Origin: Deltaproteobacteria bacterium
Lineage (GTDB): Bacteria > UBA10199 > GCA-002796325 > 1-14-0-20-49-13
Length of the DNA stretch: 34,465 nt
Reading direction: 5' to 3'
NCBI GenBank assembly: GCA_016180865.1
Contig: JACPAJ010000060.1
Span: 1-34,465 of the forward strand
Shown here: positions 1 to 31,447 of the stretch, in pieces
How positions within the stretch are numbered: position 1 is the first letter of the stretch
How the letters are laid out: each line of letters begins with the position of its first letter
Program-made: the position numbers and the translations under genes
The notes under the pieces: generated by a model
Told to the model about the DNA's origin: nothing
The model's database searches: none
The model's input: only the letters and a program-made list of their open reading frames with translations

Positions 1-20
1 TCTCTATGTGAGCCCCTAAC

Positions 21-99
21 AACGGCTTAGGCTTTGCAAGAAGGCAAGTCCTATTTGATACAGAGTTTGATAAACGCCTTTTTGCAAAGCTTAGCCGTT
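21..99. repeat. Imperfect long inverted repeat (arms 21-45 and 76-99)
   Basis: AACGGCTTAGGCTTTGCAAGAAGGC versus the reverse complement of GCCTTTTTGCAAAGCTTAGCCGTT; 30-nt loop containing TTTGATA twice. Confidence 0.75.
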
Positions 100-195
100 A
101 TTGGGCGATCTCCGAGAGAAGGTTCGCGCCCCGCTGGTCCCATAGCGGGTCGCCGAGTCTAAGCAATGAAAACAGTTGGTGAGCGGAGAACATGC

Positions 196-220
196 TGCCT
201 GTCTGCCGGCAGGCAAGGCC
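196..220. repeat. TGCCTG..CTGCCGGCAG..GGCA palindromic repeat (same core as in hutI at about 31251-31275)
   Basis: TGCCTGTCTGCCGGCAGGCAAGGCC; both sites translate as LPAGRQA on the minus strand. Confidence 0.7.
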
Positions 221-261
221 ACTAGTTGACAAGACGCTGTCTCTAGCGTAATTTGGAAACG

Positions 262-3200
262 ATGATGTATCAACTGGCCAAAGAATGGAAGAAGCTCAAA
301 GACCGCACAATTCTCTTTGTTACATCAAGCGAAGCAAAGGCCCGGGAATATAAGGCTGACCTCGAATTCCTGACCGCCGGCGAGGTTCATGGGGAAGTCT
401 GCCTCTTTCCGGCTCCGGATGTCATCCCCTACCTGCATTTGACTCCGCAGCAGGATATCTGGATAGACCGCCTGAAAATTTTAGATAAATTAGCAAAAAA
501 TAAAACTCTGGCAATAATAACTCCGGTTGAAGCCTTGCTGAGAAAAAATCCGCCCAAGTGGATATTTGAAAAATACAATCGCCGCGTGAATATTCACGAT
601 ACTCTGCAGCTTGAAGAGTTTGCAAACTGGCTGGTCGAAGCAGGTTTCATAAATCAGCCGCTCGTGGAAGACGAAGGGACATTTTCCATTAGAGGCGGAA
701 TAGTCGATATCTTCCCCTCCACGTCCGACAGGCCGATAAGATGCGAGCTTGACGGCGATGAGATAGTTTCGATGCGAACATTCGATCCCGCAACGCAGAA
801 ATCATCGTTCAGCGTAAATTCCTTCACATTAATTCCCGTAAGGAATGTTATTTTGAACTCTGAAACGCGCGACTTGGCGCTAAAAGATTTAAAACCGCTC
901 TGCGACAGCCATGCAATCAGCCCCGGATTAAGGCGCGAGTTTGCCGAATCGATCTTCCATAAGTTTTACGCTCCGGCAGTGGACACTTTAATGCCCGTTT
1001 TTTACGATAAGCCCTCTTCCCTGATAGATTATCTGCCTCCCGAAACAGCAATATTTATCGACGATGAAATTGAAATCAACGAATCCGCCCAAAAGCTGAA
1101 ACAAAGGCTTGAGGCGGCCTACGGTTCGGCAAAACATATCGAAAAAATCGTCGAACCCAAAAAACTTTACGATGAATGGGCTTCAAATATCGGATCCAAG
1201 CTTCAAAAAATAACGAGCGTTCAGGGCTTTTCCGGCGACATAAAAATCGTAATCAACCAGATAAAAAGATGGCGGGAGACGGGGTTTAAAATTATTTCGA
1301 CCGCCCGCACCTCAACTCAGGCCGAGAGAATGCACGATATTTTCAGATGGCACGAAATTATTTCGGAAATAACCGACCGCCCTTTTGCAGATGCATTAAA
1401 TTTAGGCCGCTCCATCGTATGGATCATGCCCGGCGACCTTTCAAAGGGCTTTGTCGCCGAAAAAGACGGACTTGTGGTTTTAACCGATACGGATATCTTC
1501 GGTTCAAAGGTTTCAAGGCGGTCTATTGTAACCTCTCCCGCCGAAACGTTCACCGACTTTTCGCAAATAAACGAGAAAGACTGCATCATCCATAAAGAAC
1601 ACGGCATCGGCAGGTATCTCGGCCTTAAAAATATGGAAATCGGCGGCGTAAAAAACGATTTTCTGATTCTGGAATACCTCGGCGGAGACAAGCTTTATCT
1701 TCCGTTCTGGAAAATAAATTTAATCAGCAGATATCTGGGGGCGGACAGCGGAAAAACCGCTCTGGACAGGCTTGGCAGCAAGCGCTGGGCCAGAACTAAA
1801 GCAAAAGTGACGGCTTCAATCAGAACAATGGCGATGGAGCTTTTAAAAATCTACGCCGCCCGCAAAGTTAAGGAAGGTTTCGCGTTTGGGGCCCGGGATG
1901 AGCAGTTTGAAGAATTTGAAGCCGCGTTTCCATATGATGAAACGCCGGATCAGTGGAAAGCGATCGAAGAAACTTTAAAAGAAATGCAGGAAGGCGCCTC
2001 GATGGACAGATTAATATGCGGCGACGTCGGCTACGGGAAGACGGAAGTTGCCATGCGCGCCGCATTCAGAGCCGTGGCCGACGGCAAGCAGGTCGCAATT
2101 CTGGTTCCTACCACCGTTCTTGCCTTTCAACATTACGACAACTTCATGTCGCGCTTTTCAAAATGGCCGGTAAGAATCGAAATGCTTTCGCGCTTCCGGT
2201 CGCGAAGCGAGCAGAAACATATTATCGGCGACCTTGCTTTGGGAACGGTCAATATCGTTATCGGAACGCACAGGCTTCTGCAGCGCGATATTAAATTTCA
2301 GGATATCGGCCTTTTGATCGTCGATGAAGAACATAGATTCGGAGTTGCCCACAAAGAAAAGATAAGAAAGCTTGCGGCAACGGTGGATACGATCACAATG
2401 TCGGCAACGCCAATACCGAGAACTCTGCATTTATCCCTGAGCGGAATCAGAAACATAAGCATTATCAACACTCCGCCGGCAAACAGGCTCGCCATCAGAA
2501 CTTATGTCTCTGAATTCGACGAAGAAGTGATTCGCGGAGCTATTATGGCGGAACTCTCCCGCGGAGGCCAGGTCTTTTTCGTCCACAATCGCGTTGAATC
2601 GATCGATAAAATGCAAACAATGCTGACAAAGCTCGTTCCCGAAGCCAAAATTGTCGTCGGCCACGGCCAGATGGGCGAGCACGAACTTGAAGATGTGATG
2701 ATAAACTTTTTAGAAAAGAAGGCAAATGTGCTGCTCTGCACGACTATTATAGAATCGGGCATCGATATTCCAACAGCCAATACCATTATTATCAGCAGAG
2801 CCGATACATTCGGGCTTGCCCAGCTTTATCAGCTGAGAGGCCGCGTCGGACGAAGCACGGTGCAGGCTTACGCCTATCTGCTCATTCCGTCCGAAGAGGC
2901 TATTAATCCGACGGCGCAAAAAAGGCTGGCTCTTTTGCAGCGCTACACCGAACTCGGCAGCGGATTTCAGATCGCGATGCACGACCTTGAAATAAGAGGA
3001 GCCGGAAATATTCTGGGAGCGCAGCAATCGGGGCATATAAACGCAATCGGTTACGAAATGTACATCGACCTTCTGGAGCGCGCGATAAGGCATCTTCAGG
3101 GAAAGCCCGAAACTTTGGAAATCGATGCGGAAATAAATCTTCCTGTGGAAGCTTTTATACCCACGGATTATGTGGGAGATGAGGGACAGAGGCTCGTTTT

Positions 3201-19231: not shown

Positions 19232-19254
19232 AAAATTTTGCAAAGCAAAATTTT
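19232..19254. repeat. Perfect 10-bp-arm inverted repeat just upstream of tRNA-Ala
   Basis: AAAATTTTGC-AAA-GCAAAATTTT. Confidence 0.85.
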
Positions 19255-19272
19255 GCCCGCCAACGGTTTAGT

Positions 19273-19307
19273 GCTTGCCCGCCATGTAGTAGTGGCGGGG
19301 CGGGCGA
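19273..19307. repeat. GC-rich repeat of the TGCYTGCCCGCC...AGTAGTGGCGGGG family
   Basis: TGCTTGCCCGCCATGTAGTAGTGGCGGGGCGGGCG; related to rlmN 28032-28060 and hutI 30311-30363. Confidence 0.65.
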
Positions 19308-23384: not shown

Positions 23385-25103
23385 CTACAATTTTCCCAAG
23401 ACAAAACTTTGAACATCCTCAGCTATTTTATCAACCTCTTTAAGTAAGCTATCCGCCTTTTTGCGGACGTCCGCCGCCCACTTCTTATCAGTAAGCGTTT
23501 TTAAATTTATCAGCACATTATAATACGCGCCGTGCGCGGCCGCGCTGGCCATTAATGCCGCAACGCCGGCATCCGAAAGCGAATTCTGATTGCCATGTTC
23601 GGCAACGGTTTCGGCGATTTTTGCCGCCTCCACGGATTTTTCAAGCACAGATAATGGCACAAGCGTTGCACCCTTTGTCGCCTCTTCAACTGCGGCCACA
23701 CGTGCGGTTTTTTCGGCATCGCTTCCCTTCGGCATGGAAAAACACGCCATCACCTTATTAAAAGCCTCGGTATCATCATCAACCGCCTTAATCATAAAAT
23801 CTTTTATCTTTTGCGCGTCGATTCCAAGGCGCTCCATCTCGGCATTAAATTTTTCATAACCCTTCTTATTGTGCGTCAGCGCGGCAACCATGGAAGTCAA
23901 AGCCGCGGACAGCGAACCCGCCAGCGCCGCAACGCTCCCGCCGCCCGGCGCGGGCGAATTGCGCGAAAGTTCGTTTGCAAAATCTTTTACGGTCATATTT
24001 ATGAGCATTTTTGCCCCCTCTCCCTCACCCTCTCCCACAAGGGGAGAGGGAACAGTTGATCTGTCGAATTGATATTCAATTATCTTCTTGGCCGAATCAA
24101 ACGTTGCAACGTCATTCAAACCCAAAGACATCGCCGCGATATTTATAATATCTTCTTCCGGAATTCCGGCGGTCTCATTCTGTTTTTTTAGATAATAAAG
24201 GCCGGTTTCTATCATTGCTTGTTTTGGAACCATGCCGACTATTTCGCTTCCGGTTACACGCAGCCCAAGCTTTTCCGCCTCCTTCACCGCGGCATCAAAA
24301 ACCACATGCGCCGGAGTCACATGAAAATCGGTGAGGTTGATTGTTATCTGCGCTCTTTTATATTCCGGAATGAACCAGCCTGTTGCCTTGCATTCTTTAA
24401 AAAGGCCGGGGACATACACCGAATTGCCGTTTTTATCGACAACTTTATTGCCATGCACATCGCGTTTCAGCCGGCCCCGTTCGCGAAGCGTAAAAGCAAT
24501 CTCTTTGGCTTTGGCTGTGCTTGTTGTGTTAAGATTAATATTATAAGCTATCAAAAACTGCCTCGCGCCGATAACAGTTGCGCCTGTTTTAGCAACACGG
24601 TCATCAAATTTGGCCGGGCCAAAGTCAGGGCGCCATTCGGGCTTTTTTAACTTTTCGGCAAACGCCTCATATTCACCCGCGCGGATATCGGCAAGATTTT
24701 TACGCTCATGCCTTGTTGCAGCATGTTCATAAAGATAAACGGGAATTTTTAATTCTTCGCCAATTCGCCGCCCTAACTTTCGCGCAAGCTCCGCACATTC
24801 TTCCATCGTCACGTTGGATATAGGCACGAACGGGCAGACATCCGTTGCACCCTGCCTTGGATGTTCTCCTTTGTGGGCACGCATATCTATTACTTCTGCG
24901 GCTTTCTTTATCGCGCAAAAAGCTGCATCCAAAACTGCTTTCGGCGAACCGGCAAAGGTTACAACAGTCCGGTTTGTTGCGGCTCCCGGATCAACATCCA
25001 AAAGCCTGACGCCATTCACGCGTTTAATTTCAGCGCAGATTGCATCTATTTTGGCCTTATCTCTGCCTTCGCTGAAATTTGGCACGCATTCGACAAGTTT
25101 CAT
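23385..25103 (-). CDS. Bifunctional glutamate formimidoyltransferase / formimidoyl-THF cyclodeaminase
   Basis: N-terminal ECVPNFSEGRDKAKI...MRAHKGEHPRQGATDVCPFVPI; C-terminal cyclodeaminase NSPAPGGGSVAALAGSLSAALTSMVAALT. Confidence 0.95.
   Translation of the reverse strand: MKLVECVPNFSEGRDKAKIDAICAEIKRVNGVRLLDVDPGAATNRTVVTFAGSPKAVLDAAFCAIKKAAEVIDMRAHKGEHPRQGATDVCPFVPISNVTMEECAELARKLGRRIGEELKIPVYLYEHAATRHERKNLADIRAGEYEAFAEKLKKPEWRPDFGPAKFDDRVAKTGATVIGARQFLIAYNINLNTTSTAKAKEIAFTLRERGRLKRDVHGNKVVDKNGNSVYVPGLFKECKATGWFIPEYKRAQITINLTDFHVTPAHVVFDAAVKEAEKLGLRVTGSEIVGMVPKQAMIETGLYYLKKQNETAGIPEEDIINIAAMSLGLNDVATFDSAKKIIEYQFDRSTVPSPLVGEGEGEGAKMLINMTVKDFANELSRNSPAPGGGSVAALAGSLSAALTSMVAALTHNKKGYEKFNAEMERLGIDAQKIKDFMIKAVDDDTEAFNKVMACFSMPKGSDAEKTARVAAVEEATKGATLVPLSVLEKSVEAAKIAETVAEHGNQNSLSDAGVAALMASAAAHGAYYNVLINLKTLTDKKWAADVRKKADSLLKEVDKIAEDVQSFVLGKL
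24014..24052. repeat. Palindromic repeat in the inter-domain linker of FTCD
   Basis: CCCCCTCTCCCTCACCCTCTCCCACAAGGGGAGAGGGAA; CCCTCTCCC / GGGGAGAGGG arms; translated VPSPLVGEGEGEG. Confidence 0.85.
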
Positions 25104-27675: not shown

Positions 27676-27705
27676 AAGGCCGTCTCCTATGGAGGCGGCC
27701 TTTTT
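27676..27705 (+). terminator. Rho-independent terminator after the lipoprotein gene, abutting rlmN
   Basis: AAGGCCGTCTCC-TAT-GGAGGCGGCC followed by TTTTT. Confidence 0.88.
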
Positions 27706-27709
27706 AATT

Positions 27710-28858
27710 ATGCAGAATATAAAAGATATACCGATTGCTGAATTTCCTAAAACAATAGAAGGCCTGGGCCTGAAAAAATTCGCAGCAAGCCAGATAATCC
27801 AGTGGATCTACAAAAAAGGCGCAACATCATTTGATGAAATGACTAATCTTTCCATGGATGCCCGCAAAATCCTGAAGGAAAAATTTTATTTAAGCAGGCT
27901 CGAGCTTGTAAAAACGCTGGAATCATCCGACGGCACAAAAAAATTCGCCTGGCAGCTTGCGGACGGCAAGATCATCGAATCTGTGCTAATTCCTGCCGAA
28001 CATGGCTCCAAAATTCCAATAAACCAACGCACCCCGCCACTACTGCCTCGGCGGGCAGGCAACGCACTAACGCACCAACGCACTAGATTAACTCTCTGCA
28101 TCTCCACCCAGGTCGGCTGTGCTATGGGCTGCGTGTTCTGCCGCACAGCGGAGATGGGGTTCGTGCGAAATTTGACACAGGGGGAAATTGTGGATCAGAT
28201 ATTGGAAGTACAAATACAATGCCACCCCCTCCCTCACCCTCCCCCCTCGAGGGGGAGGGATGGGGAGAGGGGGACTAGAGTCACAAACGTAGTTTTAATG
28301 GGCATGGGAGAGCCGCTCGCAAATTACGATAATGTCGTAAGCGCCATCAGAATAATGACCGACACAAAGTGCCTTGGCCTCTCCAAACGCCATGTTACGC
28401 TATCGACTTCCGGCCTTGTGCCTGAAATCGAACGGCTGGCAAAAGAAGGGTTGGATATCAAACTCGCAATTTCGCTCAATGCAACAACAGATGAAGCACG
28501 ATCCGCGATTATGCCGGTTAATAAAAAATATCCCCTTGCCCTGCTTTCCAAGGCGCTGAAAAAATATGCTGAAGCAACAGGCCGTCATAGGCTCACTTTC
28601 GAATATGTCGTGATTGACGGCCAAAATGACTCGGCAGAAGATGCAAAAAGGCTTGTAAAGTTATTGAGCCACATCAAGGCAAAGGTAAATTTGATACCGT
28701 TGAATGCTATGCCCCCTCACCCCCCCTCCGAAGCCTCTATCCAGCGCTTCGCGCAGCTTCTGCGCAATAAAAATATTCAGGTGAATATCCGTAACAGCCG
28801 CGGAGCGGATATATTAGCCGCCTGCGGACAATTATCGGGGGGAACGACTCGCTCATAA
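27710..28858 (+). CDS. rlmN: 23S rRNA (adenine2503-C2)/tRNA methyltransferase, radical SAM
   Basis: LTLCISTQVGCAMGCVFCRTAEMGF (CxxxCxxC), NVVLMGMGEPLANYDNV, RNSRGADILAACGQL; start at MQNIKDI, not the ORF-track ATG 27689 that lies in the terminator loop. Confidence 0.95.
   Translation: MQNIKDIPIAEFPKTIEGLGLKKFAASQIIQWIYKKGATSFDEMTNLSMDARKILKEKFYLSRLELVKTLESSDGTKKFAWQLADGKIIESVLIPAEHGSKIPINQRTPPLLPRRAGNALTHQRTRLTLCISTQVGCAMGCVFCRTAEMGFVRNLTQGEIVDQILEVQIQCHPLPHPPPSRGRDGERGTRVTNVVLMGMGEPLANYDNVVSAIRIMTDTKCLGLSKRHVTLSTSGLVPEIERLAKEGLDIKLAISLNATTDEARSAIMPVNKKYPLALLSKALKKYAEATGRHRLTFEYVVIDGQNDSAEDAKRLVKLLSHIKAKVNLIPLNAMPPHPPSEASIQRFAQLLRNKNIQVNIRNSRGADILAACGQLSGGTTRS
28024..28086. repeat. In-frame composite repeat 1 in rlmN (GC-rich palindromic unit plus 8-bp YAACGCAC array)
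   Basis: CCAACGCACCCCGCCACTACTGCCTCGGCGGGCAGGCAACGCACTAACGCACCAACGCACTAG; translated NQRTPPLLPRRAGNALTHQRTR. Confidence 0.7.
28225..28273. repeat. In-frame palindromic repeat 2 in rlmN
   Basis: CCCCTCCCTCACCCTCCCCCCTCGAGGGGGAGGGATGGGGAGAGGGG; translated HPLPHPPPSRGRDGERG between VDQILEVQIQ and VTNVVLMGMGEP. Confidence 0.85.
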
Positions 28859-29051: not shown

Positions 29052-29933
29052 TCACCACTGCAAAAAAAGCCCGACTTCGGGCCCGTGCAAAGTTTCGTCT
29101 CCGATGCTTATTCCCCTATAAGCGGCTCTTGCTCCGATCAATTTATATTTATAACTTATGCCGGACGAAATATCATATACATCGTTGCCGCCTATAAAGG
29201 CAAGATAAGGTTTTATATCCCATATAAAATGTTTGCCAAATATTATATAAAATGGAAAACCGACTTCGACCCCTTCATGCTTCGTGCTTCCCCAAATTAT
29301 TTTTTCGCCGCCGGCAAGGTTCATCTGGAATACATCGCTGAAAAGAGCGCGCAATAAAATATGCCCGCTTGCAACATTCAACTCGTCCTGCGGGGCAGAT
29401 TCCCAGAAACGCTTATATTCTCCCTCGACGCCGACCATCAAATAACCGATCTCCACGCGGGCGCTTGCGGCATTATCATTTCCCGCAAGGTATTGATAGT
29501 TCCCATCAAGTTTAAAAGTCGGCAGCGCCGGACTTTCCACCTCTTTAAGATGGCGATAAACATAGCCCAAATCATCTTCACCGGCCATTTCAAACGCACC
29601 GGCTAAAAAGATGCCCATAAGAGTTTGCGCCACTCCCCATCCCAAAGTTTCGCTTAACTTTTCTGACACGCCCTTCTTTTCAGGCTCTTGATCAACCGTC
29701 TTTTTCTTTTTGGGAGTTTCAACAGATGTTGATTCTTTTTTACTGTCCAGCTTTTGCTCAAACTGCTGGATCTCGCCGGCAAACGCTGAGCTGGACACCA
29801 TCAGCATTGTCATTGCGAACGCAAGCGTAATGATCCGGAGAGACCAATTAAATTCGCTGGATTGCCACGGCCACTTTGTGGCCTTCCGCCAAATGACCGG
29901 CGGACAGGCGCAATGACTTTCACTCCTTTTCAT
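29052..29933 (-). CDS. Putative outer-membrane protein with signal peptide
   Basis: Hydrophobic segment LRIITLAFAMTMLMVSSSAFA|GEIQQ then beta-rich C-terminus ending in aromatic residue (GLFLQW); start taken at MKRSESHC. Confidence 0.6.
   Translation of the reverse strand: MKRSESHCACPPVIWRKATKWPWQSSEFNWSLRIITLAFAMTMLMVSSSAFAGEIQQFEQKLDSKKESTSVETPKKKKTVDQEPEKKGVSEKLSETLGWGVAQTLMGIFLAGAFEMAGEDDLGYVYRHLKEVESPALPTFKLDGNYQYLAGNDNAASARVEIGYLMVGVEGEYKRFWESAPQDELNVASGHILLRALFSDVFQMNLAGGEKIIWGSTKHEGVEVGFPFYIIFGKHFIWDIKPYLAFIGGNDVYDISSGISYKYKLIGARAAYRGISIGDETLHGPEVGLFLQW
29857..29917. repeat. REP-like double-hairpin element at the 5' end of the outer-membrane protein gene
   Basis: GCTGGATTGCCACGGCCACTTTGTGGCCTTCCGCCAAATGACCGGCGGACAGGCGCAATGAC: hairpins GGCCAC-TTT-GTGGCC and TCCGCC...GGCGGA; outer GATTGC../GCAATGAC. 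Confidence 0.8.
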
Positions 29934-30175
29934 ATACAATTTTCCCGTTTTTAATGACTTTGGCCACAAACGGCCTATCAAATCTATAAAAAGGTTCAAC
30001 TTCATTTTTTGCATCAAGAACCACAAAGTCTGCTGCCTTTCCAACTTCAATTGAGCCGTGAGATTTTTGCAGCGAAAGAGCCTTTGCGGCGTTTATCGTG
30101 ATGCCTTTGTATGCCTCTTCCACCGTCAGCTTCATCTGCGTTACCGCCATTGTTGCCGCAAGCCACAAGTTCAAT

Positions 30176-30281
30176 ATCGGCGACGTTCCCGGATTATAAT
30201 CCGTGGAAATTGCAACATCAATGCCTGCATCGGCGACGTTCCCGGATTATAATCCGTGGAAATTGCAACATCAATGCCTGC
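30176..30281. repeat. 53-bp perfect tandem duplication (30176-30228, 30229-30281) inside hutI
   Basis: ATCGGCGACGTTCCCGGATTATAATCCGTGGAAATTGCAACATCAATGCCTGC twice in succession. Confidence 0.97.
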
Positions 30282-30310
30282 GCCTATTATTTCACGTGCC
30301 GGCGCGTACC

Positions 30311-30363
30311 TTCCGCCCCTCCAAACAACCGGCGGGCAAGCACCACTGCTTTGGCGGGCAGGT
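30311..30363. repeat. In-frame repeat insertion 3 in hutI
   Basis: Translated PARQSSGACPPVVWRGG between TFFIGG and RYAPAREII; DNA carries two GGCGGGCA units and a AAGCA-CCAC-TGCTT hairpin. Confidence 0.7.
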
Positions 30364-30692
30364 CCGCCGATAAAAAATGTGGATGACGGAATAAGCACGG
30401 CAATTGTACCCGATTTTGCCAAGGCCCGCATATCTTTTTTAGAAATATGCTCGAGATGATCCGCACTTACAGCTTTTAACTTTGCGGCCAGTACTGCGCC
30501 TCCGTTTGATGATAGCTGATCGGCGTGCAGCTTGGCTTGGAGGCCGTATTTTGCCGCTGCTTTTAATATTTCTTCGGCTTCGGCCTTTGTAAACGCAATC
30601 TTTTCAACAAAAACATCGCAGAATTTTGCAAGTTTTTCCTTGGCGATTTCGGGAAGGAGTTGGTGGATGATGAAGTTGATATAGTCTTGTCT

Positions 30693-30780
30693 GTCATCCC
30701 CGCGAAAGCGGGGATCCAAAATGTTTCCATGAGATTCCTGCTGGAGTTTACCCCGTGCTTTGACACGGGGCAGGAATGAC
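30693..30780. repeat. REP-like double palindrome, in-frame insertion 2 in hutI
   Basis: GTCATCCCCGCGAAAGCGGGGATCC...CCCCGTGCTTTGACACGGGGCAGGAATGAC; hairpins CCCCGC-GAAA-GCGGGG and CCCCGTG-CTTTGA-CACGGGG. Confidence 0.92.
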
Positions 30781-31167
30781 AAGTCCTTTGGCACCATATG
30801 CGCCAAAAAAGTCGGCACAAATTCCTGCGGAAATTCTTCGCCAAGGCATTTCACAACCCGCAGCATTTTTAATTCGGCCTCCGAATCAAGCCCGTAACCG
30901 CTTTTTACTTCGATTGTCGTAACACCGTGAGATAACGATTCCTGCGCGCGCGCCTTTGCACGCTCAAACAGTTCGTCTTCTCCGGCCGCTCGCGTTGCGC
31001 GAACGGTTGACATTATTCCGCCGCCTGCTTTAGCAATATCTTCATAGCTTGCGCCTCTTGCCCGCATGGCAAATTCATCGGCACGACTCCCCGCATGAAC
31101 TAAATGTGTATGGCAGTCGATAAGGCCGGGAAGGACGACAGAGCCGCGGGCGTTCAGGACTTGCGTG

Positions 31168-31287
31168 TCATTGCGAGGAAGTCCACCAAAGGTGGACGAC
31201 GAAGCAATCCCATGTACACACTTTCTAGCGGGAGATTGCTTCGTCCCCTTCGCCTGCCTGCCGGCAGGCAGGGGCCTCGCAATGACA
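31168..31287. repeat. 120-nt REP-like composite palindrome, in-frame insertion 1 in hutI
   Basis: GTCATTGCGAG...CTCGCAATGAC perfect 11-bp termini; inner GTCCACC-AAA-GGTGGAC, GACGAAGCAATCCC...GGGAGATTGCTTCGTC, GCCTGCCTGCCGGCAGGCAGG. Confidence 0.93.
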
Positions 31288-31447
31288 TCGATAATCTTCC
31301 CACCATCAACTTCAACCGCCGCATTTTTAATAACCCCAAGCTCGCCTTCGCGCCCTTTGCCCGGCGCCATAGTCACAAGTCGGCCTATGTTTGTAATGAG
31401 CATGCAATGGTAAATAACAATATAGGACCGCGATTACAACTAATTAT

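Follow-up and report, generated by a model that had tools for sequence, protein, structure and literature searches.

Rickettsia and Wolbachia supplied the first examples of palindromes that turned into protein sequence, and intragenic REPs in some other species were described afterwards. The rickettsial palindromic elements (Ogata et al. 2000, 2002, cited in PMC2229807) sit in frame in conserved genes (PMC3767692). RPE-4, RPE-6 and RPE-7 have ATGAC ends in common, and at a given site in orthologous genes one of them can take the place of another (PMC3767692). The insert in the rickettsial guanylate kinase is translated and the enzyme is active (PMC2229807), which serves here as a precedent only. 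Di Nocera et al. assign RPE-4 and RPE-6 to the superfamily of CGTC-tagged REPs (PMC3733652). In that superfamily the tag can also be TGTC, the stem starts with A-T, and most elements are head-to-head dimers; some copies lie in genes, and no transposase is known (PMC3733652).

We found a segment of hutI (imidazolonepropionase) that very probably belongs to a dispersed family of non-autonomous, palindromic mobile repeats, which are tolerated in surface loops and filtered for frame. We call the repeat family A. The gene lies in a 34,465-nt stretch of DNA (the window). The hutI insertion is true, well delimited and in frame, and the enzyme offers a clear case of one loop used by several kinds of repeat. 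The parts of the palindrome are as follows (window positions).

31167..31286, 120 nt: palindromic element of family A, GTCATTGCGAGG...CCTCGCAATGAC, in frame in hutI on the minus strand and read as VIARPLPAGRQAKGTKQSPARKCVHGIASSSTFGGLPRNDT (sequence and translation)
31166..31178: left terminal arm TGTCATTGCGAGG, pairing with 31275-31287 (sequence, fold)
31181..31197: variable hairpin arm GTCCACC-AAA-GGTGGAC (fold)
31199..31244: central stem GACGAAGCAATCCC / GGGAGATTGCTTCGTC with a 19-nt loop (fold and copy comparison)
31245..31274: variable hairpin arm with the palindrome CCTGCCTGCCGGCAGGCAGG (31253-31272, LPAGRQA core) (fold and copy comparison)
31275..31287: right terminal arm CCTCGCAATGACA (sequence, fold)

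The preliminary description had placed the element at 31168-31287, which is off by one, and had its length of 120 nt right. The perfect termini of 11 bp that it reported are real, and they reach 13 bp when the flanking T (31166) and A (31287) are included, giving 122 nt with a perfect 13-bp terminal complement. The three hairpins, described as nested, instead fold abreast within the outer stem as a cloverleaf. As DNA, the element folds at -41.8 kcal/mol (z = -8.5), and none of 200 shuffles was equally good; the coding strand as RNA gave -73.3 (z = -9.1 against shuffles). The core GAAGCAATC/GATTGCTTC of the central stem is common to other family A copies. In the nearest sister copy (L002), the arm that bears CCTGCCTGCCGGCAGGCAGG is shorter. 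The LPAGRQA core does occur elsewhere in the window, as had been noted, in a 91%-identical 22-nt match at 197-218. Rfam gave no match on the 120-nt element and two weak ones, far below the gathering score, on a second insert in the gene. A literature search with motif and peptide strings returned unrelated matches only.

The gene carries three inserts and one duplication.

30171..31403, minus strand: hutI open frame, 410 aa, with three inserts (TIGR01224, 326.7 bits against a cut-off of 298.15; PDB HutI matches)
30693..30780: second insert, an 88-nt palindromic repeat of the GTCATTCC kind (GTCATCCCCGCGAAAGCGGGGAT...GGCAGGAATGAC), which reads as FLPRVKARGKLQQESHGNILDPRFRGDD
30316..30366, limits approximate: third extra segment, about GPARQSSGACPPVVWRGG (homologue comparison)
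30176..30281: exact tandem duplication of 53 bp, which puts hutI out of frame

The reading frame is open through the family A element, as claimed. The element had been put after KIIDV, which is the right place; the flanks are KIID and QVLNARG, and the V is already encoded by the first codon of the element. The second insert belongs to a repeat kind whose motif GTCATTCCYGC occurs 49 times in the own genome (control, 1), and an inverted match to the third segment (30 nt, 83%) lies at 19254-19283.

The gain in protein length is smaller than the length of the element. The distance from KI of one strand to the next conserved strand is 46 residues here, compared to 17-19 in uninserted homologues. 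The 40 codons first described are therefore true of the element, and the net gain is approximately 27 residues, because the native turn of the uninserted homologues is missing here. Judged from the aligned sequences, the element replaces this turn rather than merely adding 40 codons. In an AlphaFold2 model of HutI (mean pLDDT 82), the insert is predicted to be a disordered loop (residues 43-81, pLDDT ~40-60) joining strands 36-42 and 82-90 of the N-terminal beta domain. The description of the insert as just before the metal-binding HxH is apt for the linear sequence, whereas in the model it occupies a turn flanked by two N-terminal beta strands. The gene's other two extra segments are likewise low-confidence loops in the model.

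The tandem duplication bears on whether hutI is functional. It puts approximately the last 85 hutI codons out of frame and, together with three extra segments in one gene, would fit a decaying pseudogene in which the insert is just tolerated in dead DNA. We consider this improbable. The gene has no further stop or frameshift, and when it is read with a single 53-bp unit the frame reaches the normal C-terminus; the duplication may therefore have arisen recently by mutation or have been introduced by the assembly. In addition, family A is found at the same base in two genera in which hutI is open, and copies are in frame in carB, folC and tgt as well.

Family A is dispersed across the own genome, a 1.77-Mb metagenome-type draft assembly of 153 contigs that is 84% complete. 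Exact TCATTGCGAG termini occur 94 times, compared to 0 for the reversed control. We retrieved the places with exact termini and paired the ends, which delimited 46 distinct copies. Common to the copies are the termini, (T)GTCATTGCGAG and CTCGCAATGAC(A), which form inverted repeats of 11-13 bp, and the central stem; in 71 of the 92 termini GTC follows a T. The two hairpin arms vary in sequence from copy to copy and keep their self-complementarity. The arms of the hutI copy, in the same form, were found nowhere else in the retrieved own-genome sequence. This uniqueness counts against an assembly artefact or chance open frame, in which a repeat was mis-joined into hutI, as does the presence of family A at the same base in two independently assembled relatives. 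Despite the draft state of the assembly, we regard such an artefact as very improbable.

We found no target-site duplication: for k = 2 to 9, over all delimited copies, there was no excess over shuffled flanks. The own genome contains five Y1_Tnp genes, with no family A terminus within ~1.5 kb of any of them; none adjoins the repeat, and no transposase is assignable to family A. A preference for insertion into existing hairpins was considered and rejected, as flank complementarity over all copies equalled that of shuffled pairs. Two single copies are described here in their own right. The copy at L185 1431-1520 (G000:C54) has flanks complementary over 12 nt (atggcacttttt / aaaaagtgccat) and looks as if placed in the loop of a terminator hairpin. 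In the window, a diverged copy lies at 29809-29917, directly past the natural hutI stop, and its right end encodes ITLAFAMT, the hydrophobic start of the apparent signal peptide of the next ORF.

Nearly half of the copies are in open frames (21/46). The insertion was correctly described as in frame and palindromic, and it is not specific to hutI. Thirteen of these 21 copies have family-profile or PDB homologue matches on both sides, and these 13 fall in 11 conserved enzymes. Two further placements are listed after the enzymes.

HutI
MetH (methionine synthase), three in-frame copies in one gene: L147 (G000:C33), ORF 3-2702, minus strand
Tgt
NadA
FolC
CarB, at the junction of its two halves
23S rRNA methyltransferase
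ADP-forming CoA ligase
Hopene cyclase
AmgK-like kinase
CCG-type oxidoreductase
Close to N-termini: LolA and a uracil-DNA glycosylase
In linkers: hybrid histidine kinase, two copies

Several of these copies have uninserted sites in relatives. All three MetH inserts are missing from G001, G003, G004, G028, G008 and G044 in the alignment, and MetH of G002 has different extra sequence at two of the three insert places. Similarly, Tgt of G001 lacks the insert and Tgt of G002 has a different repeat-like insert there.

The repeat does not appear to be designed for coding. Copies contained 2.4 open frames, compared to 2.5 in shuffled sequence. As the repeat is no richer in open frames than shuffled sequence is, the genic copies look like survivors of a frame filter. 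Lengths divisible by three were found in 12 of 21 genic and 7 of 25 intergenic copies, an indecisive difference (p = 0.07).

Other repeat-like segments were seen in frame. The gene for Tgt (L195) has a second extra segment at residues 130-170, where several relatives have variable extra sequence, making this another recurrent insertion place. In the window, RlmN (27689-28858) contains the in-frame segments HGSKIPINQRTPPLLPRRAGNALTHQRTR and PLPHPPPSRGRDGERG, and FtcD (23385-25103) contains VPSPLVGEGEGEG; PLPHPPPSRGRDGERG and VPSPLVGEGEGEG are an inverted pair (37 nt, 81%).

The abundance of family A varies widely among relatives. We surveyed 47 genomes of the class, which are the entire phylum in the collection used. 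Exact termini numbered from 0 to 372 per genome (control, 0-5); the window's own family, f5, G010 and a few others had high counts. None of 15 copies sampled in G010 (372 termini) was in a gene, compared to 3 of 12 in G002 (226 termini). These two genomes rule out copy number as a predictor of genic load. The repeat thus does not carry a heavy genic load wherever it occurs.

The turn of HutI carries an insert at 6 of the 20 HutI loci found in the class, apparently of three repeat kinds. Family A is at the same hutI base in three genera of the window's family (G000, G001 and G002), with inserts of 122, 83 and 74 nt, respectively, counting the flanking T and A. The same turn contains GTCATTCC-type sequence in G008 and G020 and, in G044, a third kind that codes for LRQAQDER; these three inserts are called repeats by their sequence, not by copy counts in those genomes. 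A short native turn is present in 12 of the other 14 class loci, 12 being all that were read (G005 and one G003 locus were left unread). We also aligned 31 HutI genes from other bacteria over the insertion turn, and all 31 have the short turn. The alignment with HutI homologues, which the preliminary description had proposed as a check, thus found the short native turn only, in 12 class genes and 31/31 genes of other bacteria. Native HutI already containing the segment would have spoken against an insertion; the uninserted homologues have the short turn.

The shared base in three genera could also reflect one old insertion in the family ancestor, inherited by the three genera and retained as a useful HutI loop. 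The position and the open frame are the same in G000, G001 and G002 even though the HutI proteins are only 65-67% identical, and the G002 copy has an open frame even though its palindrome has decayed. However, third codon positions of G000 and G001 agree at 14/16 in the element stems, compared to 0.44 in downstream hutI (P about 4e-4, with codons paired by hand), so the copies resemble the family consensus rather than alleles as old as the gene. The inserts are also unequal in length (120, 81 and about 72 nt), and unrelated sequence occupies the same turn in other lineages. We therefore consider a single inherited insertion unlikely. The third-position pattern, as read from these codons, speaks against copies that were simply inherited and decayed neutrally; the agreement could come from re-insertion, from conversion by other copies, or from constraint on the stems.

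Our results are most consistent with the insertion of a mobile repeat. We suggest that the repeat entered hutI at the turn joining two strands of the N-terminal beta domain, where it displaced the native turn. The copy would persist because an element of this length and composition leaves the frame open at that place and because a long disordered stretch is tolerated in the turn. Its effect on the enzyme is probably neutral or mildly harmful rather than useful. Movement was presumably by transposition, with the lack of a target-site duplication as a point against it. The same lack may point to a single-strand, REP-like process. Our results might also indicate, tentatively, that the HutI turn is a class-wide landing pad that unrelated palindromic repeat families enter repeatedly, displacing the native turn, and where they are refreshed or exchanged after their hosts diverge. 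If so, mobile DNA keeps rewriting one loop of a conserved enzyme.

These findings matter for how proteins acquire sequence. In this uncultured class, 21 of 46 copies of one family are in open frames, and different repeat kinds are at one enzyme's loop in several lineages. Many natural insertions with uninserted relatives could show which loops tolerate new sequence and how repeats supply proteins with new peptide segments.

By the features described for them, RPE-4, -6 and -7 resemble family A in being dispersed palindromes of ~100 nt, in frame in conserved genes and in exposed loops, and in that orthologous genes can carry different kinds of element at one site. Family A has the dispersed, stable palindrome of ~100-150 nt (46 copies; z = -8.5 for the 120-nt copy), in-frame insertions missing from homologues (13 copies in 11 enzymes; relatives without the insert aligned for HutI, MetH and Tgt), and the terminal ATGAC, within its CTCGCAATGAC end. 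In contrast to RPE-4, -6 and -7, its host is an uncultured class outside Rickettsiales and its arms are longer and more variable.

Family A shares with MITEs (ERIC, Correia/NEMIS and the Yersinia palindromic sequence; PMC2229807) a short, non-autonomous form with terminal inverted repeats, and some of those repeats are fused in frame to genes (PMC2229807). Unlike MITEs, family A has no target-site duplication and no TA ends, and no related transposon was found. A Y1_Tnp gene flanked by the repeat, as for RAYT-mobilised REPs, was not seen among the five Y1_Tnp genes and their surrounding ~1.5 kb.

Like the CGTC-tagged REPs, family A has an outer CGTC/TGTC tag (T before GTC in 71/92 termini), an A-T stem start, two head-to-head units and some copies in genes, with no dedicated transposase known. 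The stem of 8-9 bp, loop of 4-5 nt and short tail of the four published CGTC-REP families are not present in family A, whose unit is ATTGC...GCAAT with a 5-bp base stem and long, variable arms. Because the stem and loop architecture differs, family A fits none of the four families as described. Family A is a known type of repeat, in a new host lineage with a heavy genic load.
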